Both the position numbers and the translations under genes were made by a program. 64,000 nt of DNA, from assembly GCF_026210795.1 (NCBI RefSeq), contig NC_089455.1, positions 1,488,001 to 1,552,000 on the forward strand, in the 5' to 3' direction. Position 1 is the first letter of the stretch. Every line of letters begins with the position of its first letter. The notes under the pieces were generated by a model. The model was given only the letters and a program-made list of their open reading frames with translations, did no database searches and was not told where the DNA came from. Shown here in pieces: positions 14,967 through 55,587 of this stretch. This DNA is from Rhizophagus irregularis (lineage: Eukaryota > Glomeromycota > Glomeromycetes > Glomerales > Glomeraceae).

Positions 14967-15842
14967 CACCCACCTGCCAAAAGTATCCAGACACCTCTAA
15001 AAAATGACCATTAAATCACACGACATCCAGTGATCAGAATTTAACAATTTATGATTCATTGGATTCATCTAATTGGGACGCATCTAACCGCAGTATTTTC
15101 AAGTCTGTAAGTTCAATAGATCAGAAGTTATTGCTGAATGTCTAAAAATAGTAAAATGCAAATAACTTTTGATCCATCAATTCTAGAGATATGAAAATAA
15201 TAGATACCATGTATCTTAACAAGACAATTCTAATGAATCATATTTCATCTTTCCAAGTTCAATAGAGAAGTAAACGTTTTGAAATTTGTATATGTCAAAT
15301 TTTTAAAAGTGAATAATGAATTATTTGCATTTTACTGTTGAGAATAACATCTGATCCATCAAATTTAGAGGCATAAAAACACTGCAATTAGATGCATCTC
15401 AATAATATGAATTTATTGAATCATAAATAATTAAATCTGTTCACTGATTATTGAAATAATGTGATTTAACTTTATGAAGTAATTCATTTTTTATCTTTAA
15501 AACTTTAGCAAATACAAATTTCACAACATTTTCATCCCTATTAAACTTAGAATGATGAAATATGATTCATTAGATTTATCTCGTTAAGATATATGGTATT
15601 TATTATTTTCATATCTCTAGAATTGATGGATCAAAAGTTATTTGCATTTTACTATTTTTAGACATTCAGCAATAACTTCTGATCTATTGAACTTACAGAC
15701 TTGAAAATACTGCGGTTAGATGCGTCTCAATTAGACGAATCCAATGAATCATAAATCGTTAAATTCTGATCACTGGACGTTGAAATAATGTGATTTAATG
15801 GTCATTTTTTATAAGCGTCCAGATACTTTTAGCAGGTGGGTG
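14967..15842. mobile_element. 876-bp Tc1/mariner-type palindromic MITE
   Basis: A long inverted repeat with arms of roughly 370 bp. The left end CACCCACCTGCCAAAAGTAT mirrors the right end (read inward CACCCACCTGCTAAAAGTAT). TA dinucleotides flank both ends (14965-14966 and 15843-15844). The CCAAAAGTATCCAG part of the terminus is shared with the Tc1-like element at 49701-51034, so a related transposase may have mobilised it. No coding capacity. Confidence 0.9.
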
Positions 15843-15980: not shown

Positions 15981-16108
15981 CGAGAGATGATTATGACTCA
16001 AATTGAACTGAATTGACCCAGTTCAAGTTCAGTTTACATCTTAAGTAAACTGAGTTATAATTCAGTTTAAAGTTCAATTCAGTAAACTGAACTGAACTGA
16101 TTTATTTA
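15981..16108. repeat. Left part of an outer GTTCAG-repeat element
   Basis: Starts CGAGAGATGATTATG next to TTATAA (15975-15980). The mirror terminus CATAATCATCTCTAA ends at 34450 and is followed by TTATAA. The interior consists of variants of AACTGAATTGA/GTTCAGTTCA. I read 15981-34450 as one non-autonomous element split by the LINE/MITE nest. Confidence is moderate because the terminal match is short and the TSD is AT-only. Confidence 0.55.
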
Positions 16109-16109
16109 C

Positions 16110-16124
16110 ACTGGTCAAAAACCA
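16110..16124 (-). other. LINE target motif, left 3' junction
   Basis: TGGTTTTTGACCAGT on the minus strand, directly after the 3' end (GTTTGCC) of the left LINE. It shares the C variant (GACC) with the motif at this LINE's 5' end, as expected of a target-site duplication. The sequence CACTGGTCAAAAACCA with TTA outside (16106-16108) also matches the MITE terminus. Confidence 0.75.
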
Positions 16125-16382
16125 GGCAAACGTGGCATAGTAGCCTTTATCTTTATTAAATTTATTCGAACTTTACAATTTACAAAAAAATAAAAAGAAA
16201 ATATAAAAATAAAACTAACTAAAAACAAAGCTATATAGTCTCCTAAGAAAAAATAAAGTAAAAAAAAATTAATCTAAAAAAGAAAAATCGCATTACACTA
16301 AATTTCCCCAGATCTTCCCCCTTGATATATTCCAACCAAAGTAGAAGCAACTATGCTAACAAAATAACGAATAGCGCGCCCA

Positions 16383-19300
16383 CTATAAAAATCGACACTC
16401 CATCCTGCAAAAGCTGTTATTAAGTAGCACCGTTAGACGACCCATAAAACCCGAAAAATGATTAAACCAAGGCAAACCGTATTTCATCGAGTTCTTCAAC
16501 CAATCGGTTCCGGAGTCACGTAAATCGTGTAGGGTCGGAGGTGGTAAAGATGAGTAAGGTATGTACGATGACAATAGCAAATTAGAAGGCTTCGGAGTAG
16601 TTTTCAACTTATAAGTAATATTCATCGCGTTTTCCCATCTACTTTTCTCATAAGAACGCGGATTCCAAATTCGTTTTCTGAATTTTTGGACAAAATTATT
16701 ATGAATAGCAGCGATAACCTTAAGCGCAGAGATTCTTGGAATAGACAAATCGACTAAAATGTCAATAAAAAGTGTAGGTAAACAACCACGGACGAGGGCG
16801 TAAGAGGACCAATTTGTAGAAGAAAAGGACCAGCATGAAAGAGAAGTGAGTTTAGCAATAAAGGGAGTAGGATCAATATCAGCCAATTTTCCAGCTTCTT
16901 GAATTTTAGAAATCAAATGATTTTGATAAGATTGGAGAATTTGTTGCATAGGTAGACGACGTTTTTTGCACATAAAAAGGTGCATCAGGTCTTCCATGCG
17001 ATCGATACAAGAACGGCAAGTTAATTCGTCCATGTATAAGTCTGGTCGAGTCCGCTTAAGCTTTTCCAATGTAGGTAAGTCGTCCAAGAAAAGTTTGAAT
17101 TTAAAGGTTAAGTGTCTTGAAGCATGCTCAAGAGTAAAAGATGCATCATGAGAAGGCTTGAAATTCAAGGTAAACCAAGTAAGTTCCCAGTCGACAATAT
17201 ATTCTATATTAGATAATAATAAAGAAATAAAGTGAAATCGTGATAATTTTAACAAATCACGCATTAACTGCGTTTGATAATACTGTTTAAGAAGGTGTCG
17301 TGGATTAGATTCACAAACGGCGTCATTGTCGTAAGTCAAGACGAAATCATGGGCAGAGGCAAAGTCCATTCCAGAAATCAAAATACTGGATGATGCGGTA
17401 TGGGCAGTATTGGCCAGGGAGTCAGCAAAATCGTTCAAATAATTGCCAGAATGAGCTTTAACTTTAACAGGAAGAACTGTCAAATTCTTGGTAAGGATAG
17501 TTCGTTCAATAATGGCCCAAAGCTCAAAATTTGTTGTTTTGTAGTAAAGACGGCTATTTGAGTAGACATAGGAAGAGCAACTTCGAAGGCCATCAATGGC
17601 AGTTTGCGAGTCAGTATAAATAGTAACTTCTGAGTCGCGAGGAGAAATGGTTAAAACTGCGTAAATAGCGGCAGCTTCAGCACGAGAAGAAGAAGGATTA
17701 TCTCGAATGATGCCATGTGCATAAGTAGCAATGGAATTAGGAAAACCAGCATCAGGTACGATTTGCATCCAAGACCAGCCCATAGAAACATTAGGAGTGC
17801 CTAGATTAATAAGAGACCCATCAGTGAAAAAGATATAACGTGAGTCTGAAGACACAACCAACGGCGAATTTGCAAAAACAGCAGCAGCTGAGGATTCAAT
17901 AGTGATAAGAGGAGCGGAAACTTCAACAAAATCATCAGGAGGAGAGTCAAAATCAAAATCCAATCGACTGTAATAAAGACGGACACCATCTTCGATATCA
18001 GCCCAGGTAAAGGGAGAGGATACTGCAGAAGTATTACGTCTAATGCGCTCATTGATGGTGGGCAGAATAAGCGAATGTTGTAGAGAAACCGTAGGCGTAC
18101 AAAGGGTTAAATCAGCATTCCGTTTTTTGGAAGGAGGCAAAGGAGTATGAGCAGCACAACCAGGGCAAGGAGAGAGTCTAATGAGATCACCAGGCGAAGA
18201 TTCACAATCAGGAGAGACCCAGTGAACAATAGAGCAAGTACCACGACTTGCTTGAACTAAAAGTTGTTTGCCAAAGATGGGAGAACCGTAGTCGTCTAAC
18301 GTGACAATCCAATTTTTCGTAGTGGTAAGAGAGGACAGGCAAGGAGTCAATTCATAAAATGAAGAGTCAATCGTAGGCGTAGTAATGAACTGGCTCAGCA
18401 AACGATTGTTGGTGTCAGGAATGGTAGTAGCTTGCTGGATATCTTTATACCAATAAGGGATACAGCCAGGGCCACGTCGTCCAACCAAATTGTCATAGTA
18501 GGCTTTCCAAGAAATTAAATGAGTCCCTTGGGGAGTAACAAGCTGAGATAGATAAAACAAATGCCGTTTTCGCAAAATAGGGAAATAGGCTTTAAACGCT
18601 TTAGGTGTCATGCATTCAAATAAGGGAACGCGTCCACCCATCAAAGTCAGGTTCGGAAGCTTCGAAAGTTGAGTATGAAGCAAACGAAAGGGAGTAGAGG
18701 ATAAGAGAGCAATAGTGCATGCGATATAATCTTTCTTAAAAGAAAAAAGAGAAGACCATATAGACCAATCCTTAATTAAAAGGGGAGAAATAGGAATTAA
18801 AAAATTATATTGAATCAAACTCAATCTATAAATAAAAAGAGATTGAATAAAAGAAAAGGAAGAATTAGCCATTAAAAATAAATTAGTAATATGACATTGT
18901 CGTTGATGAGCAAATAAATTTATCAAGCCCAAGGCTTGAGATAAAAATAAAATGGGATTTGGTAAAGAGCGAGAAAAATTTGCTTTGTGCTTTACAACAG
19001 ATCGTATACTTCTCGTTATTAGGTGGCAGTCAGATTCAGACAAGTGAGTAACTTGCATCCGGTATTCAAGTTTCGGTATAAGGACAGCATTATGTAAATA
19101 AACAACTTGTTTGGATGAGAGCTTTGCAGGGCGGATGGTTGCAGCGAAGGAGCAGCATTCACGTTTGAGTTGTTTCTTGACAAAATCCCGGGAGCTTTTA
19201 ATGTTAAACCAAACACCTAAAAAACGAAAAGAAGTTGTCATAGAAATTGGGGTAATGGTAATGGAAGGAACACTATTTAATGAGGATAAATCTAAATTAA

Positions 19301-22010
19301 AAGTAATAGGAGATAAAGTGGAATTCGAAGTCAAAGGCAACGAATTAGTAATTAACACATATTTGTTATGATTGGCAGAAGTGTTATTAATTTGATAGAA
19401 TTCTTCTGTAATGGATAACATAAATTCCATGCCAGTCTTCGACGAGGAAATAAGAGTAGAGTCATCCATAAATACTAAATTATTAATCTTCAAATCGGAA
19501 GAAGGATTGGGAGAATCAATTAAGGATGGTGTAGAAAGAACATAAGGGTCCATCATTTCATGCTTCAAGACAGTAAGCAAGGGATCAATATAAATAACCC
19601 ATAAGAGAGGAGAAATAACTTCGCCTTGGTCAATACCAATGCGAACCCTATAAGCAGGCGTGGATCCATGAGCAGTGAAAACGCTATTAATGCGTTTTGT
19701 GAAAAGGGAAAGAATAAACTTAATAGCAGAAGCTGGAAGACGTATTCGTTCTAAAGCGAAACGTAACATTGTCAAATCAACCGAGTCAAAAGCTTTAGAA
19801 ATGTCTTGAGAGAGAATCCAAAGTGGGTTTTTGTTAACATCAGCATCATGGATAATAGATTCTAGAGTAATAATAGGGTCGCGGCAAGAACCACCAGGAA
19901 GACCAGCGAAGTTACCACCTTTAAGAACATCATGTGTAGCCATAATAGTAGAAAGGCGATTATAAAAGAGTTTGACAAGAGATTTTCTAATCACTTCAAG
20001 TAAAGTAATAGGACGAGTATTTTTCAATTGACATTTCCATTCGTGAGGTTTGGGAATGGGAAAAACCATTGCCTGTCGCCATAAGTCAGGAATATCAGCT
20101 TTGGAAAGGCAAGCTTGAATTAAAATAAGGAGTAGAGCCGAGGAACAAGATCCAAGGTGTTTGAGCATTTCATAAGTGATCATGGAAGGACCTGAGGCTT
20201 TACCGTTAGGAGTAGCAGAAACGGTGGTTAACCATTCGTCAAGGGTAGGGGGATTCATCAAAGAATCATAGATGGAGGAGGGCACATCATCCATAGGTTG
20301 GTAAACAGAAGACCATCTATCAGGTAATGTATCTACAGATACAGGAGGAGTGGATTTTATAGGTACAAAGTTTTGGAAATGGTTAACAACAGCATCGTCT
20401 ATATCCTTGGGAGCAGTTAATAACTGAGGGTGAGTGGGATGATCAACAAAGACACAATCCAAAGTGATACGGCGGCGGGTGCGAGAAAGCGCTGAATCAA
20501 TGAAAGAGGAAAGGTCAGTTTCAAAATTATTGTTCCTATCGTCCAAATGAGCACGAATGGAGGAATCTTGGAATTCTTTTTCTTGAAGTAAATGAAATCC
20601 CCGTAAGGATTTTGAAATATTGGATAAATCATCAAGAAGTGACTTGAAATCATCTTGTCGACATGATGAGAGAGAAGAGGGCAAAGTAGGAACGAAAGTA
20701 AATACTTTCTTATATAATTGCAAAATGTTTTGAAGTCTGATTAAATGAATAGACCACTTATGTTCATGAGCGGCAGAATAAGTTAAAGGATATTTGCGCA
20801 ATAAACGTATTGAATGCATAAGGCGATTTAAAAACCGATAATGTTGGGTTAAAATTTCCAGATCTTTAGGAACCTTAGGAGTATAATTATTGCCAACAGT
20901 GGAAGAAGGTAGTGTAGCGTTGGCAGCTTTAAGAATTCGTGATTGGAGATATTCGCACATTTGATTGATATGCCAGGAGGAAAAGGTTGAAGGTGAGACG
21001 TCACATAAAGCATCAGCTTTATCAGCAAATTCCGTCCATTGAATTTCAGTTACAGAATCAAATTTGAAGACGCGACGGGTTCGGCGCTTAAGTTGTCGAG
21101 CGCGAGCCAATTTGGTAGAGGCAAAAAGTAAAGACATATCATAGTATGTTATGACGGGGTTATGATCAGATGTGCAAACATCTTGAGCATTAAAAATGCA
21201 AGCAGTAAGAGCAAATCCTTTGAGAAGAGGGCAGGACCATACATAATCAACTTGAGTAATGTGGTCATTGCGATGAAAGGTACCTAAGGAGTCGGAAAGA
21301 TTAATAGGAGTATAGTCTTCATATCCGTGAGAGAGGAGATGAAAAAATAATCGGTGAATATGTTTTGAAGCAACTTGAGGTTGATTGAAGTAAATAGGGT
21401 AATATTTGTCTAAATGCATATTAAAATCGCCACAAACAGCATGGTAAAAGCCAGCATGTTTAGTAAGGGTAAGTTGTTGAATGAGCAAATCAATAGTATC
21501 AGTGCGCAGAACACTTTCAGCAGGGGGAGGGATATAAATAACAAATATACGCAATTTAATATTGCCTTTGAAATATAAATCAACAGAAAGTAACCGTGAA
21601 GAATGGGATTTAAAATCTTGAACATGTGAAGTAAGGGAATTTTCTATAAAAAGAGAAACACCACCAGAAGAGAGAATTTGTTTAGAAGTATCCAAATTAG
21701 AAGAGAACACAGTATAATTAGAAATACGTTTGGATAAAAACTTCATTTGTTTAGGGTGAAGATGGGTATCCACGATACCACCAAAGGAAATATGTTTTAA
21801 GGAAAAGAAAGTAGAGATTTCTTCTAATTTAGTCTGACCATACATTTTAAGGCCATTAACATTAAAGGAAGAAATATTAAATGAATTGGGAATAGGGGAA
21901 GTGTTACTGGAAGAGGAAAATAACGATTCATGCGAAAAAATTTCAGTAACATTGTCAGGGTTGGGAGGGTTTCGTACAAAGGTGTCATAATTAAAATTAT
22001 TGTCCGACAT
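16383..22010 (-). CDS. LINE-A ORF2: endonuclease / reverse transcriptase / RNase H
   Basis: 1875-aa polyprotein for target-primed reverse transcription. APE-type endonuclease at about residues 45-290 (FNVNGLKM at 49, GDFNMH at 194-199, SDHNPV near 285). RT at about 600-900: NTRPITLLEVIRK, SQDISKAFDSVD (about 737), GIDQGEVISPLLW (about 793) and FMDDS (about 846), with Phe instead of the usual Tyr/Phe-Ala before DD. RNase H at about 1385-1530 has a full catalytic set: FFTDGS (1394), SRAEAAAIYAV (1442), IYTDSQTAIDG (1463), KAHSGN and FADSLA. A CX2C...HX4C knuckle, CRSC...HLFMC, lies at about 1665-1681. The start is 50 bp after the ORF1 stop. No stop or frameshift seen, unlike the right copy. Confidence 0.93.
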   Translation of the reverse strand: MSDNNFNYDTFVRNPPNPDNVTEIFSHESLFSSSSNTSPIPNSFNISSFNVNGLKMYGQTKLEEISTFFSLKHISFGGIVDTHLHPKQMKFLSKRISNYTVFSSNLDTSKQILSSGGVSLFIENSLTSHVQDFKSHSSRLLSVDLYFKGNIKLRIFVIYIPPPAESVLRTDTIDLLIQQLTLTKHAGFYHAVCGDFNMHLDKYYPIYFNQPQVASKHIHRLFFHLLSHGYEDYTPINLSDSLGTFHRNDHITQVDYVWSCPLLKGFALTACIFNAQDVCTSDHNPVITYYDMSLLFASTKLARARQLKRRTRRVFKFDSVTEIQWTEFADKADALCDVSPSTFSSWHINQMCEYLQSRILKAANATLPSSTVGNNYTPKVPKDLEILTQHYRFLNRLMHSIRLLRKYPLTYSAAHEHKWSIHLIRLQNILQLYKKVFTFVPTLPSSLSSCRQDDFKSLLDDLSNISKSLRGFHLLQEKEFQDSSIRAHLDDRNNNFETDLSSFIDSALSRTRRRITLDCVFVDHPTHPQLLTAPKDIDDAVVNHFQNFVPIKSTPPVSVDTLPDRWSSVYQPMDDVPSSIYDSLMNPPTLDEWLTTVSATPNGKASGPSMITYEMLKHLGSCSSALLLILIQACLSKADIPDLWRQAMVFPIPKPHEWKCQLKNTRPITLLEVIRKSLVKLFYNRLSTIMATHDVLKGGNFAGLPGGSCRDPIITLESIIHDADVNKNPLWILSQDISKAFDSVDLTMLRFALERIRLPASAIKFILSLFTKRINSVFTAHGSTPAYRVRIGIDQGEVISPLLWVIYIDPLLTVLKHEMMDPYVLSTPSLIDSPNPSSDLKINNLVFMDDSTLISSSKTGMEFMLSITEEFYQINNTSANHNKYVLITNSLPLTSNSTLSPITFNLDLSSLNSVPSITITPISMTTSFRFLGVWFNIKSSRDFVKKQLKRECCSFAATIRPAKLSSKQVVYLHNAVLIPKLEYRMQVTHLSESDCHLITRSIRSVVKHKANFSRSLPNPILFLSQALGLINLFAHQRQCHITNLFLMANSSFSFIQSLFIYRLSLIQYNFLIPISPLLIKDWSIWSSLFSFKKDYIACTIALLSSTPFRLLHTQLSKLPNLTLMGGRVPLFECMTPKAFKAYFPILRKRHLFYLSQLVTPQGTHLISWKAYYDNLVGRRGPGCIPYWYKDIQQATTIPDTNNRLLSQFITTPTIDSSFYELTPCLSSLTTTKNWIVTLDDYGSPIFGKQLLVQASRGTCSIVHWVSPDCESSPGDLIRLSPCPGCAAHTPLPPSKKRNADLTLCTPTVSLQHSLILPTINERIRRNTSAVSSPFTWADIEDGVRLYYSRLDFDFDSPPDDFVEVSAPLITIESSAAAVFANSPLVVSSDSRYIFFTDGSLINLGTPNVSMGWSWMQIVPDAGFPNSIATYAHGIIRDNPSSSRAEAAAIYAVLTISPRDSEVTIYTDSQTAIDGLRSCSSYVYSNSRLYYKTTNFELWAIIERTILTKNLTVLPVKVKAHSGNYLNDFADSLANTAHTASSSILISGMDFASAHDFVLTYDNDAVCESNPRHLLKQYYQTQLMRDLLKLSRFHFISLLLSNIEYIVDWELTWFTLNFKPSHDASFTLEHASRHLTFKFKLFLDDLPTLEKLKRTRPDLYMDELTCRSCIDRMEDLMHLFMCKKRRLPMQQILQSYQNHLISKIQEAGKLADIDPTPFIAKLTSLSCWSFSSTNWSSYALVRGCLPTLFIDILVDLSIPRISALKVIAAIHNNFVQKFRKRIWNPRSYEKSRWENAMNITYKLKTTPKPSNLLLSSYIPYSSLPPPTLHDLRDSGTDWLKNSMKYGLPWFNHFSGFMGRLTVLLNNSFCRMECRFL

Positions 22011-22060
22011 TAAAACACAATGATATAAACAGTCGGGGAGTTAAAATTTGAAGAAAGAAA

Positions 22061-24184
22061 TTAATTGGAAGAAGCTGAATCAGCTTGTTCCAGGGGAGCA
22101 CCACCAAGGGAGCCAATGAATTGCTTGATATGACCAGTAAGTTGGTCCAATTTACTTTCAATAGCGACACGACTATTTTTGAGATCATTAATTTCTTCTT
22201 GTGTGGAGGAGATGGGAGTAAAAGGAGGAGCATTTGGAGAAAGGTGAGAAGAAGGAGGTGATGTGTCAGGAACAATAGTGAATGTAGGCGAAGGTCGCGT
22301 TAAAATACTTTTGGGAGGCAGCGAAGATTTAGCGGAAGACAGAATATTAAGAGGAACATGAGTAACAGGGGCATCTTCTTGCATGAGGTCCGGTTCAGGT
22401 TCATTGGGTATAGGGAGTGGATCAAGGCCAAGGTGTGATTCAATACGAGTCATCCGTTGGTCAGCAAGTTCAAGAGCGGAGATGCGTTTGTGAAAGTTAG
22501 CAACTTCACATTGTAATTCTCGTAAAAGGTTTAGAATGTTGTTAGCATCATCAGGAGATAATGCAGAGTTAGGAGTTTGTCGGGGTAAGGGACGTGCTGT
22601 AGAACGAGAGGAGGAAGAAAAGGAGACAGATCGTTCTTTACTATTATGGCGGGCACGTTGAGAAGTATTGGGAGGGGGTTTGTTATGATTACTATTATCA
22701 TTATTAGTGCGGTCATGGGAAGCATTATTGGCTCGTCCAGAATTGGAAGCAGATCGATCTTTAGATTTGGAGCGAGATCGAGAGCGAGAACGTGCATTGG
22801 CAATATTAGAATTGGAGCGAGGTTGATTAACATTGAATCGTTCTTTGAGTTTTGCAACAGGGTCACGAGTGCGGCTTCTACCTCTGGTTTGTTTGAGTGG
22901 GCAAAAATTAGGAGCACAACCTAGTTTGCCACATCTGTGACAAAGTTTATTAGTATTATCGGGAGAGGACCAGAAAAGCACTTTGCCTTGGAAACTAACA
23001 GTCTGTTCCATAGCAGCATCCATGGTTTCTTGGGAGTTGAAGGTGACATAGGCCCATCTTTTGGGTTTGTAGGAATTTAAAGAAAGAGGAACATTGACAG
23101 CTTTTGCACCAAGTTCGCGTGTAAGAGGAGCCAAGTTGATATCCTTAACATTGGGAGGAAGTTGAGTGAGGGTGGCAACGTATTGACGGCGCGCAGCCTT
23201 TTGATCCACAGTATAGAAACATGGAGTAATTCGGAGACAGGTGGAGAAACAGTAAACAGCCCATTGGTCGGTAAAATGAGCAATTGAATCGGCGTGATCA
23301 TACACAATACGGGCTTGCTGGACTTTAGCATTAGGCCTGGAGAAGAGGCGACAAGAGGTAATATTACCAAATTTTTTGAAATAGGCCATGAGGTTGTCCT
23401 TTTTGATAAAGAAAGGGATATCGGTAACTTGGATAGCCCGGAGATCTTCATTGGATCGGAGTTGGCGAGGGTCATGGGCATGAAAAATCAAGTCAGGGAA
23501 CTCAGGATGAGAGGAACCAACGCACAGATCGCGTGCTTCAGCGGTATGGAAGTGGATAACGAGGCGTTTAGCCTCACCAGAACCTGTCATACGAGCTTTT
23601 CCAGTGAATGACTCGTACGTTTCTAAGAAAAGGTTATTCACAGCCTCAATAAGGGCTTTATTGGTAGGGAATTTCTTGAGTGATTCAGGGGCAGCATTCG
23701 GCGCAGCCGCAGCCTGAAAATCATCTCTGGTTATGGCAAAGGTCACCACTGGATCTGGGGTTTGATCGCCATCAGGAGCACCATTAGTATCCAAATTGGG
23801 CGACGCGTTAGGGGGTTGTTGCAAGTCTTTGTTTGAAGGTGCATGCATGGACGCGTCCACATTTCCAGAAGACGCAACGTGACTGGGCGCAGTTGGCGCA
23901 GCAGATTTTTTCGGGGAGGAGGCCAAAGTATTTTCGCCAGAGATATTTTGTTGAGGAGAAGAGGAAGGTCCATCTACTCCAACGTCAGCCGTCTGGTCAT
24001 CGGCAACGTAGTCTTCTTCCATAGAATTTTCGGTAATCGTACGATTACGTTTCTGCTGGATAGTGTTTTCACCATCGGAGCTTGAATTATCGGAGTTGTT
24101 ATTATTTTTTCGTTCTTGACGGGAAGCTTTCCTACTGTTAGGGTTATGACTTCCACGGCCTCTCTTGGTATAGTTACCAGACAT
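22061..24184 (-). CDS. LINE-A ORF1: RNA-binding protein with RRM-like, zinc knuckle and RS segments
   Basis: 707-aa ORF1 protein, expected to bind LINE RNA in a ribonucleoprotein. It has a Ser/Asn/Pro-rich acidic N-terminus. An RRM-like fold spans about 250-310 (DIPFFIKKDNLMAYFKKFGN), with a second RRM-like segment at about 330-395 (KRWAYVTFNSQETMDAAM). A CX2CX4CX4C knuckle, CHRCGKLGCAPNFC, occupies 415-428; it has Cys where the canonical gag knuckle has His. An Arg-Ser tract (RSRSRSRSKSKDRS, about 462-476) and a heptad-like helix (about 547-585, LRELQCEVANFHKRI) follow, then a Pro/Ser-rich tail. The start ATG opens MSGNYTKRGRGSHN and matches the right copy. Frame is complete. Confidence 0.9.
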   Translation of the reverse strand: MSGNYTKRGRGSHNPNSRKASRQERKNNNNSDNSSSDGENTIQQKRNRTITENSMEEDYVADDQTADVGVDGPSSSPQQNISGENTLASSPKKSAAPTAPSHVASSGNVDASMHAPSNKDLQQPPNASPNLDTNGAPDGDQTPDPVVTFAITRDDFQAAAAPNAAPESLKKFPTNKALIEAVNNLFLETYESFTGKARMTGSGEAKRLVIHFHTAEARDLCVGSSHPEFPDLIFHAHDPRQLRSNEDLRAIQVTDIPFFIKKDNLMAYFKKFGNITSCRLFSRPNAKVQQARIVYDHADSIAHFTDQWAVYCFSTCLRITPCFYTVDQKAARRQYVATLTQLPPNVKDINLAPLTRELGAKAVNVPLSLNSYKPKRWAYVTFNSQETMDAAMEQTVSFQGKVLFWSSPDNTNKLCHRCGKLGCAPNFCPLKQTRGRSRTRDPVAKLKERFNVNQPRSNSNIANARSRSRSRSKSKDRSASNSGRANNASHDRTNNDNSNHNKPPPNTSQRARHNSKERSVSFSSSSRSTARPLPRQTPNSALSPDDANNILNLLRELQCEVANFHKRISALELADQRMTRIESHLGLDPLPIPNEPEPDLMQEDAPVTHVPLNILSSAKSSLPPKSILTRPSPTFTIVPDTSPPSSHLSPNAPPFTPISSTQEEINDLKNSRVAIESKLDQLTGHIKQFIGSLGGAPLEQADSASSN

Positions 24185-24315
24185 AGTAGAGGGCTTTGAG
24201 TTGGGAATATATAAAAAATATAAAATTTTATTAGTAGTTTGTATTATTTTTTAAAAATAATAAAAAATATTTTCGTCGGAATTTTTGTTTTTGAAAAATT
24301 CAGGAGAGAGTTACT

Positions 24316-24660
24316 ACTGGTCAAAAACCAATATATCGGGTAGCAGATATGTATCAGATATGTACCCGATATGTGTAGTATTAATGCAGAAAATCGGGTA
24401 CCCGATATGTATAAGATATATGTAAATATATATATCATATACATATCGGGTACCGATATGTATATGATATGTAAATGATATGTAGACGATATATATATTT
24501 ACACATATCTTACACATATCGGGTACCCGATATGTATATGATATATATATTTACATATATCTTATACATATCGGGTACCCGATTTTCTGCATTAATACTA
24601 CACATATCGGGTACATATCTGATACATATCTGCTACCCGATATATTGGTTTTTGACTAGT
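24316..24660. mobile_element. 345-bp palindromic MITE, host target of LINE-A
   Basis: Near-perfect inverted repeat throughout: ACTGGTCAAAAACCAATATA at the left and the mirrored TATATTGGTTTTTGACTAGT at the right. The interior is made of ATCGGGTACCCGATATGT words. If the LINEs are removed, the outer junctions read TTA|CACTGGTC (16106-16108) and GACTAGTG|TTA (33805-33807), suggesting a TTA duplication as in PIF/Harbinger elements. It has no coding capacity. Its terminal 15 bp equals the motif at every LINE junction here. Confidence 0.85.
24646..24660 (+). other. LINE target motif at the MITE right terminus
   Basis: TGGTTTTTGACTAGT, the inner right end of the palindromic MITE, followed at once by element B. 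The same 15 bp recurs at 25598-25612 and 33789-33803 in the same orientation, and in inverted orientation at 16110-16124 and 24316-24330 (with C for T). Confidence 0.85.
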
Positions 24661-25597
24661 GCAGGCCGGACTGGTATTTCTTGGAAGGAGCTCCTGACCA
24701 ACGTATTTCTTACTAGTTGATGTTGTTAACTGGGGAGTTAGTCTTCTAAAATAAGGAGACGGAGTTGAGGTGTATGTTTGGTGAATTTTACTCAGGTTTT
24801 TCTCATTGCACTTTGAGTTTTCCTGAGGTTTATGTCTTTATTTTTTGCTTTTTGTTTTTCTTGGTCGCTTTTTTCGGTGTAACCTTATTTTCTTTGGGGG
24901 TGGGGGGATACTGGAAAATTTGATCGTCATGGTGGCTTGGTGTTACAATTTTCAAAATCGATCATCATTGGGGTGATAAGGGGGGTGACAGGTTGGGTAC
25001 CACAGTTTTTGTAGTATACCGATCAAGGTGGTCACATGATGGACTATCATTGGATTGACTTATCTAGGTAGATCTTAGGTCGATGGATTGTTCTCAATGT
25101 GGTGGGTGTCCTCTGTTTGGGATCGTTCGAAATGAGGTGGGTGTCCCTTCGGGGATTGCACGACACTAAAAAGTTCCCCATCAGCTGGACTGCACGACAC
25201 TAAAAAGTTCCCGGAGGTCTTTGTAAAATAGGTTTGTTATCCATAGTATGTAGTCAAATAGGGGAAATTGAATTTTATGTATTTCTGATAGTGCTAATGG
25301 TAGCTCGGAGGTTCTTTACCGATTCTAGGAGTGGGTACGGCGCTGGATGGGTTACGTATAGCATAGTCGACTTTACTCATTTTGAAATAGATTTGGGGGG
25401 AGTAGCCGTAGTTATTTATACAGAGAGGGTGGGATTTTATAATCTTAGCTTTTCTTTTTATTTGCAATTTCGGAAGATTATTTGTTCTTTGTTTTCTATT
25501 AGTTCTGCACTTGTTGCGGTACTTTATAGTTCACTCTGTGTTCTCTAAAGTCACTTCGGCATTAATTAATAAAATTCAAGCTCAAGCTATGTTTGCC
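24661..25597 (+). mobile_element. 0.94-kb element sharing the LINE-A 3' end
   Basis: A less AT-rich, G/T-skewed segment lying between two copies of the target motif. It ends AATAAAATTC...GCTATGTTTGCC directly before TGGTTTTTGACTAGT, parallel to the LINE-A end (AATAAAG...CTATGCCATGTTTGCC). It holds two copies of GCACGACACTAAAAAGTTCC (about 25166 and 25186). A 104-codon hydrophobic open frame (25234-25548) has no domain and I do not call it a gene. It is most likely a non-autonomous or 5'-truncated relative using the same 3' signal. Confidence 0.6.
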
Positions 25598-25612
25598 TGG
25601 TTTTTGACTAGT
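25598..25612 (+). other. LINE target motif, right 5' junction
   Basis: TGGTTTTTGACTAGT directly before the right LINE's 5' end (AACTCTCTCC). It carries the T variant, as does the 3' copy at 33789-33803. The match extends leftward through ATGTTTGCC because element B ends with the same tail. Confidence 0.8.
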
Positions 25613-25740
25613 AACTCTCTCCTGAATTTTTCAAAAACGAAAATTCCGACGAAAATATTTTTTTATTATTTTTAAAAAAATAATACAAGCTACTAATAAA
25701 ATTTTATATTTTATATATTCCCAACTCAAAGCCCTCTACT

Positions 25741-27863
25741 ATGTCTGGTAACTATGCCAAGAGAGGCCGTGGAAGTCATAACCCTAATAGTAGGAAAGCT
25801 TCCCGTCAAGAACGAAAAAATAATAACTCTGATAACTCGAGCTCCGATGGTGAAAACACTGTCCAGCAGAAACGTAATCGTACGATTACCGAAAACTCTA
25901 TGGAAGAAGACTACGTTGCCGATGATCAGACGGCTGACGTTGGAGTAGATGGACTTTCCTCTTCTCCTCAACAAAATTTCTCTGGCGAAAATACTTTGAC
26001 CTCCTCCCTGAAAAAATCTGCTGCGCCAACTGCGCCCAGTCACGTCGCGTCTTCTGGAAATGTGGACGTGTCCATGCATGCACCTTTAAACAAAGACTTG
26101 CAACAACCCCCTAACGCGTCACCCAATTTGGATACCAATGGTGCTCCAGATGACGATTGAACTCCAGATCCAGTGGTGACCCTCGCCATAACCAGAGATG
26201 ATTTTCAGGCTGCGGCTGCGCCGAATGCTGCCCCTGAATCTCTTAAGAAATTCCCTACCAACAAAGCCCTTATTGAAGCTGTTAATAACCTTTTTTTAGA
26301 AACTTACGAGTCGTTTACTGGAAAAGCGCGTATGACTGGCTCTGGGGAAGCCAAACGCCTCGTTATCCACTTCCATACCGCTGAAGCACGCGATTTGTGC
26401 GTTGGTTCCACTCATCCTGAGTTCCCTGACTTAATCTTTCATGCACATGACCCTCGCCAACTCCGATCCAATGAAGATCTCCGGGCTATCCAAGTTACCG
26501 ATATCCCTTTCTTCATTAAAAAAGACAACCTCATGGCTTATTTTAAAAAATTTGGTAATATCACCTCTTGCCGCCTTTTCTCCAGGCCTAATGCCAAAGT
26601 TCAGCAAGCCCGCATTGTGTATGATCACGCCGATTCAATCGCTCGTTTTACCGACCAATGGGCTGTGTACTGTTTCTCCACCTGCCTCAGAATCACTCCA
26701 TGTTCTTATACTGTGGATCAAAAGGCTGCACGCCGTCAATACGTTGCCACCCTTACCCAACTTCCCCCCAATGTTAAGGATATCAATTTGGCTCCCTTAC
26801 TCGTAGCCTTGGCGCTAAAGCTGTCAATGTACCGCTTTCTCTAAACTCTTACAAGCCCAAAAGATGGGCTTATGTCACTTTCAATTCCCAAGAAACCATG
26901 GATGCTGCTATGGAACAAACTATCAGCTTCCAAGGAAAGGTACTTTTCTGGTCCTCCTCAGATAATACCAATAAACTTTGTCACAGATGTGGCAAATTAG
27001 GTTGCGCTCCAAATTTTTGCCCACTAAAACAAACCAGAGGTAGAAGTCGCACTCGCGACCCCGTAGCAAAACTCAAAGAACGATTTAATGTCAATCAACC
27101 TCGCCGCCCCAATTCTAATGCTGCTAATACACGTTCTCGCTCCCGATCTCGCTCAAAATCCAAAGATCGACCTACTCATGATTCTGGACGTGCTAATAAT
27201 AATAACAGTTCTCATGACCGCAATAATAATGTTAATAATCATAACATACATAATCCCAATACCTCCCAACGTGCCCGGCATAATAGTAAAGAACGATCGG
27301 TCTCTTTTTCTTCCTCTTCTCGTTCTACCGCTCGTCCCTTGCCCCGACAAACTCCTAATTCTGCATTATCTTCTGATGATGCTAACAATATTTTAAACCT
27401 CTTACGTGAATTGCAATGTGAAGTTGCTAATTTTCACAAACGCATTTCCGCTCTTGAACTTGCTGACCAACGGATGACTCGTATTGAATCACACCTTGGC
27501 CTTGATCCGCTTTCTAGTCCTAATGAATCTGACTTGGATCTCATGCAAGAGGATGCCCCTGTATCCCATGTTCCACTTAACATTCAGCCTTCCACTACAT
27601 CTCCCTTACCTCCCAGAAGTATTTTATCGCGACCTCTGCCTCCTACTATTCTTGTTCCCAACACGTCGCTTCCCCCTTCTCACCTCTCCCCCAACGCTCC
27701 TCCTTTTACCCCTATCTCCTCCACGCAAGAAGAAATTAACGATCTCAAAAATAGTAGAGTCGTTATTGAAAGTAAATTGGACCAACTTACTGGTCATATC
27801 AAACAATTCATTAGCTCCATTGGTGGTGCTCCCCTGGAACAAGCTGATTCAGCTTCTGTTTAA
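25741..27863 (+). pseudogene. LINE-A right ORF1, disrupted
   Basis: Counterpart of the 707-aa ORF1. It starts MSGNYAKRGRGSHN and is interrupted by TGA at 26158-26160 (where the left copy reads DQTPDP) and by a frameshift near 26800, inside the second RRM-like segment (left copy APLTRELGAKAV). The distal frame from 26898 keeps the knuckle CHRCGKLGCAPNFC, the RS tract and the helix, and ends at 27863 like the left copy. An RNA-binding protein cannot be made in one piece. Confidence 0.9.
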
Positions 27864-27913
27864 ATTTCTTCTTCAAATCTTATCTCCCCGACTATTTTTA
27901 TCATTGTGTTTTA

Positions 27914-30900
27914 ATGTCGGACAATAATTTTAATTATGACACCTTTGTACGAAACCCTCCCAACCCCGATAATGTTACTGAACTTTTTACACATGAATCA
28001 TTATTTTCTTCTCCTAGTAACACTTCTCCTATCCCCAATTCATTTAATATTTCCTCCTTTAATGTCAATGGCCTTAAAATGCATGGTCAGACTAAATTAG
28101 AAGAGATTTCTACCTTCTTTTCTCTAAAACATATTTCCTTTGGCGGTATTGTTGATACTCATATCCACCCTAAACAAATGAAGTTTTTATCCAAACGACT
28201 TTCTAATTATACTGTGTTTTCTTCGAATTTGGATACTTCTAAACAAATTCTTTCTTCTGGTGGTGTTTCCCTATTTATAGAAAATTCTCTTGCATCACAT
28301 GTACAAGATTTTAAATCCCATTCTTCACGACTGCTTTCTGTTGATTTATATTTCAAAGGCAATGTTAAATTGCGTATATTTGTTATTTATATCCCTCCCC
28401 CTGCTGAAAGTGTTCTGCGCACTGACACTATTGATTTGCTTATTCAACAACTTATCCTTACTAAACAAGCTGGTTTTTATCATGCTGTTTGTGGCGATTT
28501 TAACATGCATTTAGATAAATATTATCCTATTTATTTTAATCAACCCCAAATTGCTTCAAAACATATACACCGATTACTTTTCATCTCCTTTCTCACGGTT
28601 ATGAAGATTTTACACCCATTAATCTTTCCGACTCTTTAGGTACCTTTCATCGCAATGACCACATTACTTGTGTTGATTATGTATGGTCCTGCCCTCTTCT
28701 CAAAGGATTTGCTCTTACTGCTTGTATTTTTAATGCTCAAGACATCTGCACATCTGATCACAACCCTGTCATCACATATTATGATATGTCTTTACTTTTT
28801 GCCTCTACCAAATTGGCTCGCGCTCGTCAACTTAAGCGCCAAACCCGTCGCGTTTTCAAATTTGATTCTGTAACTGATACTCAATGGACGGAATTTGCTG
28901 ACAAAGCTGATGCCTTATGTGATGTTTCACCATCAATTTTTTCCTCCTGGCATATCAATCAGATGTGCGAATATCTTCAATCGCGAATCCTTAAATCCGC
29001 CAACGCTACTTTACCCTCTTCTACTGTTGGCAATAATTATACTCCTAAGGTTCCTAAAGATCTGGAAATTTTAATTCAAAATTATCGGTTTTTAAATCGC
29101 CTAAGGCATTCGATACGTCTATTGCGCAAATATCTTTTAACTTATTCTGCTGCTCATGAACATAAGTGGTCTATACATTTGCATCGACTTCAAAACATTC
29201 TTCAATTATATAAGAAAGTTTTTACTTTCATTCCTACTCTGCCCTTTTCTCTTTCATCATGTCGACAAGATAATTTCAAGACACTTCTTAATGATTTATC
29301 CAATATTTCAAAATCCTTACGGGGATTTCATTTACTTCAAGAAAAAGAATTCCAAGACTCCTCCATCCGTGCTCACTTGGATGATAGAAATAATAATTTT
29401 GAAACTGACCTTTCCTCCTTTATTGATTCAGCGCTTTCTCGCACCCGTCGCCATATCACTTTGGACCGTATCTTCATTGACCATCCTTCTCAACCTCAGT
29501 TGTTAACTGCTCCTAAGGACATAGATGATGCTGTTGTTAACCATTTCCAAAACTTTGTACCTATAAAGTCCAATCCTCCTGTATCTATTGATACACTACC
29601 TGATAGATGGTCTTCTGCCTATCAACCTATGGATGATGTGTCCTCCTCCATCTATGATTCTTTAATGAATCCCCCTACCCTTGATGAATGGTTATCCACC
29701 GTTTCTTCTACTCCTAACGGTAAAGCCTCTGGTCCTTCCATGATTACCTATGAAATGCTCAAACATCTCGGATCTCGTACCTCGGCTTTACTCCTCATTT
29801 TGATTCAATCATGCCTTTCCAAAACTGATATTCCTGATTTATGGCGACAAGCAATGGTTTTTCCTATCCCCAAACCTCACGAATGGAAGTGTCAATTAAA
29901 AAATACTCGCCCTATTACCCTACTCGAAGTGATTAGGAAATCTCTTGTCAAACTTTTTTATAATCGCCTTTCTACCATCATGGCTTCACATGATGTCCTT
30001 AAAGGTGGTAACTTCGCTGGTCTTCCTGGAGGTTCTGCCGCGACCCTATTATTACTTTAGAATCTATTATCCATGATGCTGATATCAACAAAAATCCGCT
30101 TTGGATTCTTTCCCAAGATATTTCTAAAGCTTTTGATTCAGTTGATCTAACGATGTTACGTTTCGCTTTAGAACGTATACGTCTTCCAGCCTCCGCTGTT
30201 AAGTTCATCCTTTCACTTTTTATGAAACGCATTAATCGCGTTCTCACTGCTCATGGATCTACGCCTGCCTATAGGGTTCGCATTGGTATTGACCAAGGCG
30301 AAGTTATCTCTCCTCTTTTATGGGTTATTTATATTGATCCTTTACTTACTGTTTTAAAGAATGAGATGATGGACCCTTATGTTCTTTCTACACCGTCTTT
30401 AATTGATTCTTCAAGTCCTTCTCTTGATTTGAAGATTAATAATTTAGTATTTATGGATGACTCTACTCTTATTTCCTCGTCAAAAGCTGGCATGGAATTT
30501 ATGCTATCCATTACTGAAGAATTTTATCAGATCAATAACACTTCCGCCAATCATAACAAATATGTGTTAATTACTAATTCGTTGCCTTTGACTTCGAATT
30601 CCGTTATATCCCCTATTACTTTTAATTTGGATTTATCCTCTTTAAATAGTGTTCCTTCCATTATTATTACCCCAATTTCCATGACAACTTCTTTTCATTT
30701 TTTAGGTGTCTGGTTCAACATTAAAAGCTCCCGGGATTTTGTCAAAAAGCAACTCAAACGTGAATGCTGCTTATTCGCTGCGACTATTCGCCCCGCAAAG
30801 CTCTCTTCCAAACAAGTTGTGTATTTACACAATGCCATCCTTATACCGAAACTTGAATACCAGATGAAAGTTACTCACTTATCTGAATCTGATTGTCACC

Positions 30901-33533
30901 TAATAACGAGAAGTATACGATCTGTTGTAAAACATAAAGCAAACTTTTCTCGTTCTTTACCCAATTCCATTTTATTTTTGTCTCATGCCTTGGGCTTGAT
31001 TAATTTGTTTGCTCATCAACGACAATGTCATATTACTAATTTATTTTTAATGGCTAATTCTTCTTCTGTTTTTATTCAATCTCTTTTTATTTATAGATTG
31101 AGTTTAATTCAATATAATTTTTTGATTCCTATTTCTCCCCTTTTAATTAAAGACTGGTCTATATGGTCTTCTCTATTTTCTTTTAAGAAAGATTATATCG
31201 CATGCACTATTGCTCTCTTGTCTTCTACTCCTTTTCGTTTGCTTCACACTCAACTATCGAAGCTTCCGAATTTGTCCTTGTTAGATGGACGCGTTCCTTT
31301 ATTTGAATGCATGACGCCTAAAGCCTTTAAAGCCTATTTTTCCATCCTGCGTAAACGACAACTGTTTTATTTATCTCAGCTTGTTACTCCCCAAGGAACT
31401 CATTTAATTTCCTGGAAGGCTTACTATGACAATTTGGTTGGACGACGTGGCCCTGGCCGTATCCCTTATTGGTACAAAGATATTCAACAAGCTACCACTA
31501 TTCCTGACTCTAATAATCGTTTGCTAGATCAGTTTAATTTTATGCCTACGATTGACTCTTCCTTTTACGATTTGACTCCTTGTTTATTTTCTCCTCCTAC
31601 TACAAAAAATTGGATTGTCACGTTGGACGATTATGGTTCTCCCTTTTTTGGCAAACAACTTCTAGTCCAAGCTAGTCGTGGTACTTGTTCTATTGTTCAC
31701 TGGATTTCTCCTGATTGTGAATCCTCACCTGGTGATCTCATCAGACTTTCCCCTTGTCCTGGTTGTGCTGCTCACATTCCTCTGCCTCCTTCCAAAAAAC
31801 GGAATGCTGATTTAACCCTTTGTACACCTACGGTTTCTCTACAACATTCGCTTATTCTGCCCACTACCAACGAGCGGATTAAACGTACTACTTCTGAAGT
31901 GACTTCCCCTTTCACTTGGGCTGATATAGAAGATGGTGTCCGTCTTTATTATAGTAGATTGGAATTTGACATTGATTCTTCTCCAGCAAATACCACTGTA
32001 GCTTCCGTTTCTCCTGTTACTATTGAATCATCGGCTACTGCTGTTTTTGCTAACTCCCCGTTGGTCATTTCTCCAGACTCGCGTTACATCTTTTTCACTG
32101 ATGGGTCTCTTATTAATTTAGGCACTCCCAATGTTTCTATGGGCTGGTCTTGGATGCAAATAGTCCCGGATGCAGGCTTTCCCAACTCCATCGCCACCTA
32201 TGCTCACGGTCTTATTCGTGATAACCCTTCTTCTTCTTGAGCTGAAGCTGCTGCTATTTACGCTGTTTTAACTATCTCTCCTCGCGACTCTGAAGTTACT
32301 ATTTATACTGACTCACAAACTGCCATTGATGGTCTTCGAAGTTGTTTTTCCTCTATCTACTCAAATAGTCGTTTGTACTATAAAACCACAAATTTTGAAC
32401 TTTGGGCTATTATCGAGCGAACCATCTTCTCTAAAAATTTGACTGTCCTTCCCGTCAAAGTTAAAGCTCATTCTGGCAATTATTTAAACGATTTTGCTGA
32501 TTCCTTGGCCAATACCGCCCATACCGCGTCATCCAGTATTTTGATCTCTGGAATGGACCTGGCCTCTGCCCATGATTTTGTCTTAATTTATGACAATGAT
32601 GTTGTCTGTGAATCTAATCCGCGACACCTTCTAAAACAATACTATCAAACGCAGTTAATGCGCGATTTGTTAAACTTAACGCGTTTTCACTTTATTTCTT
32701 TATTATCAACTAATATAGATTATATTGTTGACTGGGAACTTACTTGGTTCACTCTAAATTTCAAGCCCTCCCATGACGCGTCCTTTACTCCTGAGCACGC
32801 TTCAAGACACCTAACCTTTAAATTCATACTTTTCTTGGATGATTTGCCTACATTGGAAAAGCTTAAACGGACCCGACCAGACTTATACATGGACGAATTA
32901 ACTTGCCGTTCTTGTATTGACCGCATGGAAGACCTGATGCACCTTTTAGCGCAAAAGCGACGTCTGCCTATGCAACAAATTCTCCAATTTTATCAAAATC
33001 ATTTGATTTCCAAACTTGAAGCGAGCAATTTGGCTGATATTGATCCTTCTCCATTCATAGCTAAACTTACTTCTCTTTCATGCTGGTCCTTTTCATCTAC
33101 AAATTGGTCCTCCTTTGCCCTTATCCGTGGTTGCTTACCCAAACTCTTCATCGACTTATTTGTTGATCTATCCATTCCAAGAACTTCTGCGATTAAAGTT
33201 ATCGCTGCTATTCATAACAATTTTGTCCAGAAATTCAGAAGAAGAATCTGGAATCCACGTTCTTATGAAAAAAGTAGATGGGAAAACGCGATGAACATTA
33301 CCTATAAGTTGAAAACTACTCCAAAGCCATCTAATCTGTCATTGTCGACGTACATACCTTACTCATCTTTACCACCTCCGACCCTACACGTTTCACGTGA
33401 CTCCGGAACCGATTGGTTGAAGAACTCGATGAAATATGGTTTGCCATGGTTTAATCACTTTTCGGGTTTTATGGGTCGTCTAACGGCGCTACTTAATAAC
33501 AGCTTTTGCAGGATGGAGTGTCGATTTTTATAG
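27914..33533 (+). pseudogene. LINE-A right ORF2, disrupted
   Basis: Counterpart of the 1875-aa ORF2. It opens at 27914 (MSDNNFNYDTFV) through the endonuclease. It frameshifts near 28580 (left copy HRLFFHLLSHGYED), resumes at about 28640-30050, and frameshifts again near 30040 after GLPGGS. It resumes through the RT (DQGEVISPLLW, FMDDS) to a TGA at 32238-32240 inside the RNase H motif SSRAEAA. It then runs to 33533. A small in-frame deletion alters the C-terminal knuckle (HLLAQKRR versus HLFMCKKRR), removing its last Cys. Most domains are still recognisable, so inactivation is fairly recent. Confidence 0.92.
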
Positions 33534-33788
33534 TGGGCGCGCTATTTGTTATTTTGTTAGCATAGTTGCTTCTACTTTGGTTGGAATATATCAAGGGGGA
33601 AGATCTGGGGAAATTTAGTGTAATGCGATTTTTCTTTTTTAGATTAATTTTTACTTTATTTTTTCTTAGGAGACTATATAGCTTTGTTTTTAGTTAGTTT
33701 TATTTTTATATCTTTCTTTTTATTTTTTGTAAATTGTATAAGTTCGAATAATTTTAATAAAGATAAAGGCTACTATGCCATGTTTGCC

Positions 33789-33803
33789 TGGTTTTTGACT
33801 AGT
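33789..33803 (+). other. LINE target motif, right 3' junction
   Basis: TGGTTTTTGACTAGT directly after the right LINE's GTTTGCC end, then G and TTA (33805-33807). The final G plus TTA matches the outer boundary expected for the MITE terminus. Confidence 0.75.
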
Positions 33804-34450
33804 GTTAAAAGTTTGATTTGAGCAAATTGAATAAAATACTATTGAATATTCATATTATTGGATTATATAATAAATTAAAATTTATAATTTTAATCAAAAT
33901 CATAATAAAAAATATGCCAATTATATTATTTTTTCAATTAGAATATTAAATACAAGAATTTTAATGTTGTATACAAATGTGAAAACTTTTTTTATATATA
34001 AATATAAAAACTTTTAATTTTGTACAGTATAACAGTAATTTTGTATGATTTCAATTTTAATAAAGTTCTGATTAGATACACTTTAAACAAAAAAAAAAAT
34101 AATTTTATATAGTATATCATATAAACATAAATATTAATTGCTGTGAAATTAATTTTAGTGATTTATCTTTTAAAGAGATGGTATAGTGATATTACATAAT
34201 CATTAAATACAATTCAATAGTATAACTAAGAATAATATCAAATTTATAAATAAAGGAAGTATTAAATTATATAAGTAATTTAAGTTATTTGATAAAAATT
34301 TTTATTTACTTATAATTTTGGTTCAGTTCAATTCAAACTGAGTCAACTTGAACAAACTGAACTATGGTTCAATGGTTCAGTTCAGAGTATAAGCAAACTG
34401 AACAATAAGTCAGTTCAAACCATGGTCTACTGAACCATAATCATCTCTAA
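33804..34450. repeat. Right part of the outer GTTCAG-repeat element; otherwise AT-rich
   Basis: 33810-34310 is AT-rich and non-coding. 34320-34440 is an array of GTTCAGTTCA/TGAACTGAAC variants ending CATAATCATCTCTAA at 34450. It mirrors the terminus at 15981 and is followed by TTATAA. See the left part. Confidence 0.55.
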
Positions 34451-55000: not shown

Positions 55001-55587
55001 ACCCTGTCGTAAGCTTTAGAGAGGTCCTGAAAGTCAACCATAACTCTTTATTATTCTTCTTTGCATCTTCAATACAAGTATTAATGATTCTTAGAGGCGC
55101 CTCTGTAGATCTACCAGGTAGTCCCGCGTGATTACCTCCTTTTAATATATTACGCTCAGATAATCTTTTTGTAACAATTTTCACTAACACTTTTCTCAAA
55201 GTTTCTAGGAGTATTATTGGTCTAGTTTTTGTTAATGAGTATTTCCAATCTATTGTCTTCAGGATAGGATACAATAACGCATGTCTCCATTCTTCAGGGA
55301 TATCACCAACTTGTAAACATAAATTTGCTAATTTTAACGTGACACTTTTCATTGAAGTTCCCATATGTTTGAGCATTTTATTCGATATCTGGGAGATTCC
55401 TGGCGCTTTATTATTTGCTAGCTGTCTAATTAAAGAATTAGAATTATTCATTATGTTTTATAATTATAAATTTATTTTAATTTAAAAATATAATTATATG
55501 TCTGTTAATTAAATGGAAAATATGTATAATCTGTCATAATAAAAAGTTCACAAATTTGATGCGCAGTTTTTATATAAAATTTTAAAA

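Follow-up and report, generated by a model that had tools for sequence, protein, structure and literature searches.

Evidence that a lineage of fungal retrotransposons inserts at fixed sites within other mobile elements of Rhizophagus irregularis

Tx1L of Xenopus, a member of the Tx1 clade, is a long interspersed nuclear element (LINE) with an apurinic/apyrimidinic endonuclease (APE)-type enzyme that occupies a fixed site within another transposon, Tx1D. The R1-clade LINEs R1, TRAS, and SART combine a strict target with a short duplication and stack in target arrays, their targets being ribosomal DNA, telomeric repeats, or microsatellites. Here we describe LINE-A, an 8.2-kb element present in two copies in a 64,000-nucleotide stretch of the Rhizophagus irregularis genome (contig NC_089455.1, positions 1,488,001 to 1,552,000; hereafter the window). 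Judging from its junctions and coding potential, LINE-A is very probably a sequence-specific non-long-terminal-repeat (non-LTR) retrotransposon, whose target is formed by the 15 bp immediately within the tip of a CACTA-type miniature inverted-repeat transposable element (MITE), and its sisters A2 and A3 appear to do likewise at other elements.

RNA genes, spliced-leader exons, telomeres, and microsatellites make up most of the LINE targets described in the literature consulted, which was available in part; transposons are listed there in little detail. Since transposons stand among LINE targets in excerpts of PMC4640811, and "other TEs" (transposable elements) in excerpts of PMC8869645, which also cite the Tx1L endonuclease study, this kind of insertion is already known. 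Among fungi, MoTeR and CNL1 are non-LTR elements with target preference that belong to the R2 superfamily, MoTeR being telomere-directed (PMC12810828, accessible sections). The literature searched, in which few subscription papers were covered and sources were available in part, held no fungal LINE homing to a DNA transposon and no account of the target sites of R. irregularis LINEs.

Target and junctions of LINE-A

In the window, a 345-bp MITE (24316-24660) lies between two full-length, mutually inverted LINE-A copies, with 87-93% similarity across the seven longest arms that match between them. At its two ends, 24316-24330 and 24646-24660, the MITE carries the inner copies of the 15-bp target, and the 15-mer, TGGTTTTTGACYAGT, occurs exactly in the window only at 16110 (-), 24316 (-), 24646 (+), 25598 (+), and 33789 (+). 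The left LINE-A, delimited by its junctions and by the right copy as inverted-repeat partner, occupies 16125-24315 on the minus strand (5' end 24315, 3' end 16125), with an outer target copy of the variant CCAGT on its 3' side (16110-16124, -; an exact motif match). At the right MITE tip stands a noncoding, 5'-truncated copy of a second element, B (24661-25597, +); a target copy of the variant CTAGT (25598-25612, +) links the 3' end of B to the 5' end of the right LINE-A (25613-33788, +), and another CTAGT copy (33789-33803, +) adjoins the 3' side of that LINE. The preliminary description of this locus, made from the window alone, had held that the same 15-mer adjoins the LINE-A ends, the 3' end of B, and both MITE termini, and that its variable base co-varies; the five exact sites agree with this, and C flanks the left LINE-A on both sides and T the right one. 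It had also placed TTA at the bounds of the MITE. TTA is indeed found at 16106-16108 and 33805-33807, but the terminus reads CACTRGTCAAAAACCA, one base longer than had been stated: a direct reading gives the left copy of the 3-bp target-site duplication (TSD) plus the outermost C of CACTR at 16106-16109, and the outermost G plus the right TSD copy at 33804-33807. The target is thus set 1 bp in from the end of the MITE, with the TSD outside the extra base. At three mismatches or fewer the window holds 11 matches to the 15-mer against 6.0 expected, a number reached in 6 of 100 shuffles, so the six inexact matches are at chance level. Genome-wide, the 15-mer itself occurs 180 times, versus 28 for the reversed-reading pattern.

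Junctions were read in the 146.7-Mb, 32-contig genome assembly to which the window belongs, from the best 40 of 72 candidate LINE-A 5' ends and the best 40 of 257 candidate 3' ends, the window supplying two of each kind among the 80. Tabulated in this way, as the preliminary description had proposed, the motif follows LINE-A at two mismatches or fewer in 38 of 40 3' junctions (24, 11, and 3 junctions with 0, 1, and 2 mismatches), the exceptions being L063 (five mismatches) and L052 (10); at 760 control positions further out in the same sequences, no match had fewer than five mismatches and five had exactly five. On the 5' side, a script taking the best match within 123 bases, run without a control set, placed the motif at two mismatches or fewer in 37 of 40 junctions; the other three are L036, which has the motif and starts 12 bp late, L026, a decayed MITE tip, and L033, which lies elsewhere. 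By BLAST, 24 of the 40 5' ends have the MITE upstream and 12 have LINE-A; B lies upstream of three more, and one (L033) has no match to any of these elements. The outer flanks beyond the 40 3' ends matched LINE-A in 16 cases, B in 4, and neither these nor the MITE in 20. These 20 flanks are mutually unrelated, and the next base is the G of the MITE tip in 18 of the 19 unrelated outer flanks with a recognisable motif.

Thirteen of the 40 5' ends could be paired with a partner in the 3' set, and all 13 pairs carry an identical 15-mer at both ends, a result reached in 0 of 200,000 shuffled pairings (2.5 matches on average). The rare variants TAGTTTTTGGCCAGT, TGGTTTTTAACTAGC, and TGGTTTTTAACCAGT are likewise matched between the ends of paired copies; in the pair L013/L061, the 5' side holds two variants of the motif. 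The pair L033/L052 sits in unrelated DNA between copies of a differing 15-bp duplication, TAGATCACTTTTAAC; there LINE-A proper ends at GTTTGCC and target sequence follows. Because this copy carries another 15-bp duplication, the 15-mer is the target and not of LINE origin. AGT repeats in variable number lie between the target and the LINE-A 5' end (L001-L038), and the 5' ends of A2 and B carry GAT repeats resembling the end of the A2 target; both may reflect slippage or microhomology during joining of the 5' end.

The host MITE was followed in 40 copies, the window's included, read at both ends and taken as the best 40 of 506 candidates. Occupancy was scored by BLAST of 100-base flanks, with 5'-truncated LINE-A copies recognised; by reading, L079, a MITE within LINE-A, was counted as empty, the left match of L138 was assigned to another MITE, and in L152 the LINE-A match begins 41 bases out from the MITE. 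LINE-A or B stands at a tip in 24 of the 40 copies (15 at one tip, 9 at both). All 33 occupants of these tips (29 LINE-A and 4 B) point outward and none is reversed, and several of the LINE-A copies are 5'-truncated at differing points, each beginning at the tip. The collection of LINE-free MITEs, also proposed earlier, comprises the remaining 16 copies, 13 of which show the outermost C...G and a perfect 3-bp TSD of varied sequence, so that empty target sites exist; the imperfect ones are L040, L128, and L146. CACTR termini and a variable 3-bp TSD identify the MITE as of the CACTA (CMC/EnSpm) type. Because insertion takes place 1 bp in from the end of the MITE and leaves the tip in two copies, an outer CACTR end remains and offers a target for the next insertion, and the recreated target explains how LINEs and B elements stack at one spot. 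Two further observations touch this element: an 843-aa frame of the window, at 238-2769 (-), contains a transposase domain of the tnp2 (CACTA) type and is a candidate partner for the MITE, and L079 shows the reverse nesting, a MITE with a TTT duplication within LINE-A ORF2 (open reading frame 2).

LINE-A encodes two proteins, and both frames are open in the left window copy and broken in the right one. ORF1 (22061-24184, -; 707 aa) contains an RNA recognition motif (RRM), and ORF2 (16383-22010, -; 1875 aa) contains a putative APE-like endonuclease, a reverse transcriptase (RT; RVT_1, E=6.6e-21), RNase H (RNase_H, E=7.6e-11), and, by eye, a C-terminal Cys/His knuckle. The endonuclease motifs GDFN and SDHNP were recognised by eye, and a PDB search with this domain returned no match. 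An RT, a 15-bp target duplication, and 5'-truncated copies (of LINE-A at MITE tips, and the A3 copy L177) place LINE-A among non-LTR retrotransposons, and the recurrence of identical duplications in independent copies at a single site makes it a sequence-specific LINE. In excerpts of PMC4640811, Tx1 and R1 are the target-specific APE clades and Tx1 lies outside the list of RNase H clades; LINE-A, with its RNase H, departs from Tx1 on this point, and its predicted domain architecture is compatible with the R1 clade. LINE R1 is listed for R. irregularis in the accessible parts of PMC8647823 and PMC11075540. Two other LINE-type RT stretches in the window, at 53905-55041 (-) and 56402-59539 (+), share about 28-29% identity with LINE-A ORF2 over their longest matches and perhaps represent other families of the LINE-A group.

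Mechanistically, a putative APE-type endonuclease would nick the strand reading 5'-ACTRGTCAAAAACCA^ATAT and in this way determine the insertion site, the freed 3'-OH would prime reverse transcription from the 3' end of the LINE RNA (...GUUUGCC), and a cut in the second strand 15 nt away would lead to duplication of the 15-bp MITE tip.

Sister LINEs and the noncoding passenger B

Two findings go beyond the preliminary description, namely that sister LINEs target other mobile elements and that B is found at the targets of all three. The sisters surfaced from B loci, at which LINE 3' ends were followed by sequences other than the LINE-A motif; A2 and A3 have a 3' end nearly identical to that of LINE-A, and different targets. 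The A2 target, TTGAYAAGGACTGAT, was present at two mismatches or fewer in 15 of 16 3' ends (all but L201), read from 40 matches; four of the ends (L196, L198, L205, and L210) had been met earlier and several belong to a common array. The full A2 copies L157 and L159 carry TTGATAAGGACTGAT at both ends. In the A2 host region, which has 108 candidates in the genome, one of several frames specifies a packaging ATPase of the Pox_A32 type (24.4 bits against a cut-off of 22.8), on which ground the region is tentatively labelled Maverick-like; a frame suspected to be the end of PolB had no Pfam match. In the B flanks L084, L086, and L088, inspection by eye places the A2 target in a short tandem repeat of about 52 bp, which would supply several targets in a row.

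The A3 target, CRAAAGTGTGACTT, was found at two mismatches or fewer in 16 of 17 3' ends read from 40 matches (all but L181), and at both ends of the full copy L178. Its host is a palindromic MITE of about 297 bp with the ends AGGACCCCGG and 617 candidates; an 8-bp duplication, CATCTAAT, a length that would suit a hAT element, is exact in L191 and 7/8 in L192, with no link to a transposase. PMC8647823, in its accessible parts, counts Maverick, CMC, and hAT among the elements that have expanded recently in R. irregularis. In ORF2, A2 is 67-68% and A3 56-62% (main pieces) identical to LINE-A; for the endonuclease, the figures are 72% and 61-64%, respectively. The RT is the most similar domain in six of seven sister copies, and the C-terminal part of ORF1 is the least similar wherever found.

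Element B is about 1.25 kb at full length, so the copy in the window, whose 3' end the preliminary description had set at the motif, is 5'-truncated. In 40 copies, with the target assigned from the 3' side, B lies at the LINE-A target in 14, the A2 target in 10, the A3 target in 9, and elsewhere in 7, one of which (L096) has the LINE-A target on its 5' side. It shares with LINE-A only the 3' terminus, about 12 bases of GCTATGTTTGCC-like letters directly before the motif, and blastn between the two gave just short, chance-level matches. B is noncoding (in five copies no stop-free frame exceeds 119 codons). No tRNA was found in it, and Rfam gave no match at the gathering score for two B loci and for the window. 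B shows no head derived from tRNA, 5S, or 7SL as a short interspersed nuclear element (SINE) would, and it has in common with SINEs that it is noncoding and shares its 3' end with a partner LINE.

B would most likely be mobilised by the LINE proteins of LINE-A, A2, and A3. That some LINE other than these three moves B, their target overlap being secondary, is unlikely, although it is the alternative with most in its favour: six of the 40 copies (L096 being put with the LINE-A target) occupy six other sites, each with its own 10-17 bases common to both sides, and B and LINE-A have no long common sequence. Against it, 33 of 40 copies lie by their 3' side at the three LINE targets, and their position with respect to the tail is the same. 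In most of the 24 distinct LINE and B tails, a shared 9-nt end follows a 3-bp hairpin (absent in two tails; the comparison had no control set), which is only weakly suggestive of a common machinery. Seven of seven B copies with a distinct 3' tail sit at the A3 target, but they form a single subfamily and are therefore not independent. Among the other sites, the hosts in L095 and L101 are repeats with 92 and 588 candidates. The B copies L115, L117, and L119 show no 5' side that matches. The idea that some LINE family has the L101 site as its regular target found no support, as the LINE/B tail next to that site occurs once genome-wide (at one mismatch or fewer), which is what an off-target insertion would give. 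The best 40 of the 588 L101 host repeats are identical over 129-131 bases, and this repeat appears to be a very young or homogenised family.

Competing explanations

One site, a co-varying 15-bp duplication, a fixed orientation, empty sites, an off-target copy, and separate sister targets can all be read directly from these genomic sequences. Several points nevertheless weigh against targeted insertion as we describe it. Specificity is incomplete, with 3' exceptions in all three LINEs (L052 and L063 for LINE-A, L201 for A2, L181 for A3), and L063 retains TGGTTTTT followed by a 5'-truncated LINE-A. The endonuclease match (Exo_endo_phos_2, E=3.2e-5) scores 24.2 bits, below the Pfam curated cut-off of 27.4. 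Reading the best-scoring ends favours copies resembling the window's LINE-A; six LINE-A junctions sit in both tables as two views, so that the 80 rows represent 74 distinct junctions; and the C5 arrays L005/L055 and L010/L056 appear duplicated.

If a LINE and a MITE had come together a single time and the pair had then multiplied as a unit, in a CACTA composite or through segmental duplication, their junctions would be shared by ancestry and require no targeting. The LINE-MITE-B-LINE stretch of the window, with CACTR tips flanked by TTA, does resemble one CACTA unit, and junctions are identical in the two C5 arrays. Shared ancestry is nonetheless very improbable: the 20 outer 3' flanks are mutually unrelated, the letters of the duplication and the number of 5' AGT repeats vary, empty MITEs occur beside filled ones, and LINEs truncated at many points still begin at the tip. 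LINEs are also found at the 3' ends of LINE-A (12 of 40) and of B (3 of 40), and A2 and A3 have targets of their own. Slightly less credible again is a loose preference for AT-rich DNA or T runs that strikes MITE tips through their abundance; the partial motif of L063 and the one off-target copy among the 13 pairs would suit it, but the entire 15-mer is kept, a single orientation prevails at 33 of 33 occupied tips, and each of three sisters has a distinct target. The motif as the LINE's own terminal sequence, gained by the MITE through chance or capture, can be set aside despite adjoining 38 of the 40 3' ends, because it differs between copies yet agrees between both ends of one copy, stands without a LINE inside the CACTR ends and perfect TSDs of 13 of 16 empty MITEs, and is replaced by another duplication in L033/L052 and by different sequences after the nearly identical 3' ends of the sisters; the preliminary description had named a motif internal to the LINE as a case that would overturn its proposal, and L033/L052 speaks against that case.

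With targeted insertion as the preferred explanation, it seems reasonably probable that this fungal LINE lineage radiated by switching homes, with the CACTA MITE, a hAT-like MITE, and the Maverick-like element each dedicated to one subfamily and one noncoding passenger serving all three. As part of the same proposal, a LINE-filled MITE may stay a CACTA unit with LINEs as its cargo, since the target is a transposon tip and insertion recreates that tip on the outside. A 304-bp inverted repeat (91% complementary, 150-bp spacer) was also noted in the window at 15023-15780.

Comparison with described systems

Sisters with 56-68% identical ORF2, nearly the same RNA tail, and three different homes form a natural series for finding residues of target choice and for studying how specificity switches. 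Homing to mobile elements may let a LINE spread without gene damage in a repeat-rich fungus, and matched LINE proteins and targets could aid the design of tools for targeted insertion.

Like the partners in LINE/SINE pairs, B has a LINE 3' terminus and no long reading frame, but it is about 1.25 kb long, has no tRNA or Rfam match, and shares only about a dozen bases with the LINEs. LINE-A resembles MoTeR and CNL1 in being a fungal non-LTR element with target preference, and differs from them in its putative APE-like endonuclease and its target at a transposon tip. With R1, TRAS, and SART it has in common RNase H in ORF2, together with a putative APE endonuclease, a strict target, a short duplication, and stacking, whereas the targets of the LINE-A group are mobile elements. 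The parallel with Tx1L in Tx1D, drawn in the preliminary description, is fair as an analogy, both being LINEs at a fixed site within a transposon, with an APE-type endonuclease in Tx1L and a putative one in LINE-A; membership of the Tx1 clade is unsupported, as LINE-A ORF2 has RNase H. Unlike Tx1L, LINE-A targets a CACTA MITE tip and lives in a fungal host, and its group has at least two sister specificities together with a shared noncoding passenger.
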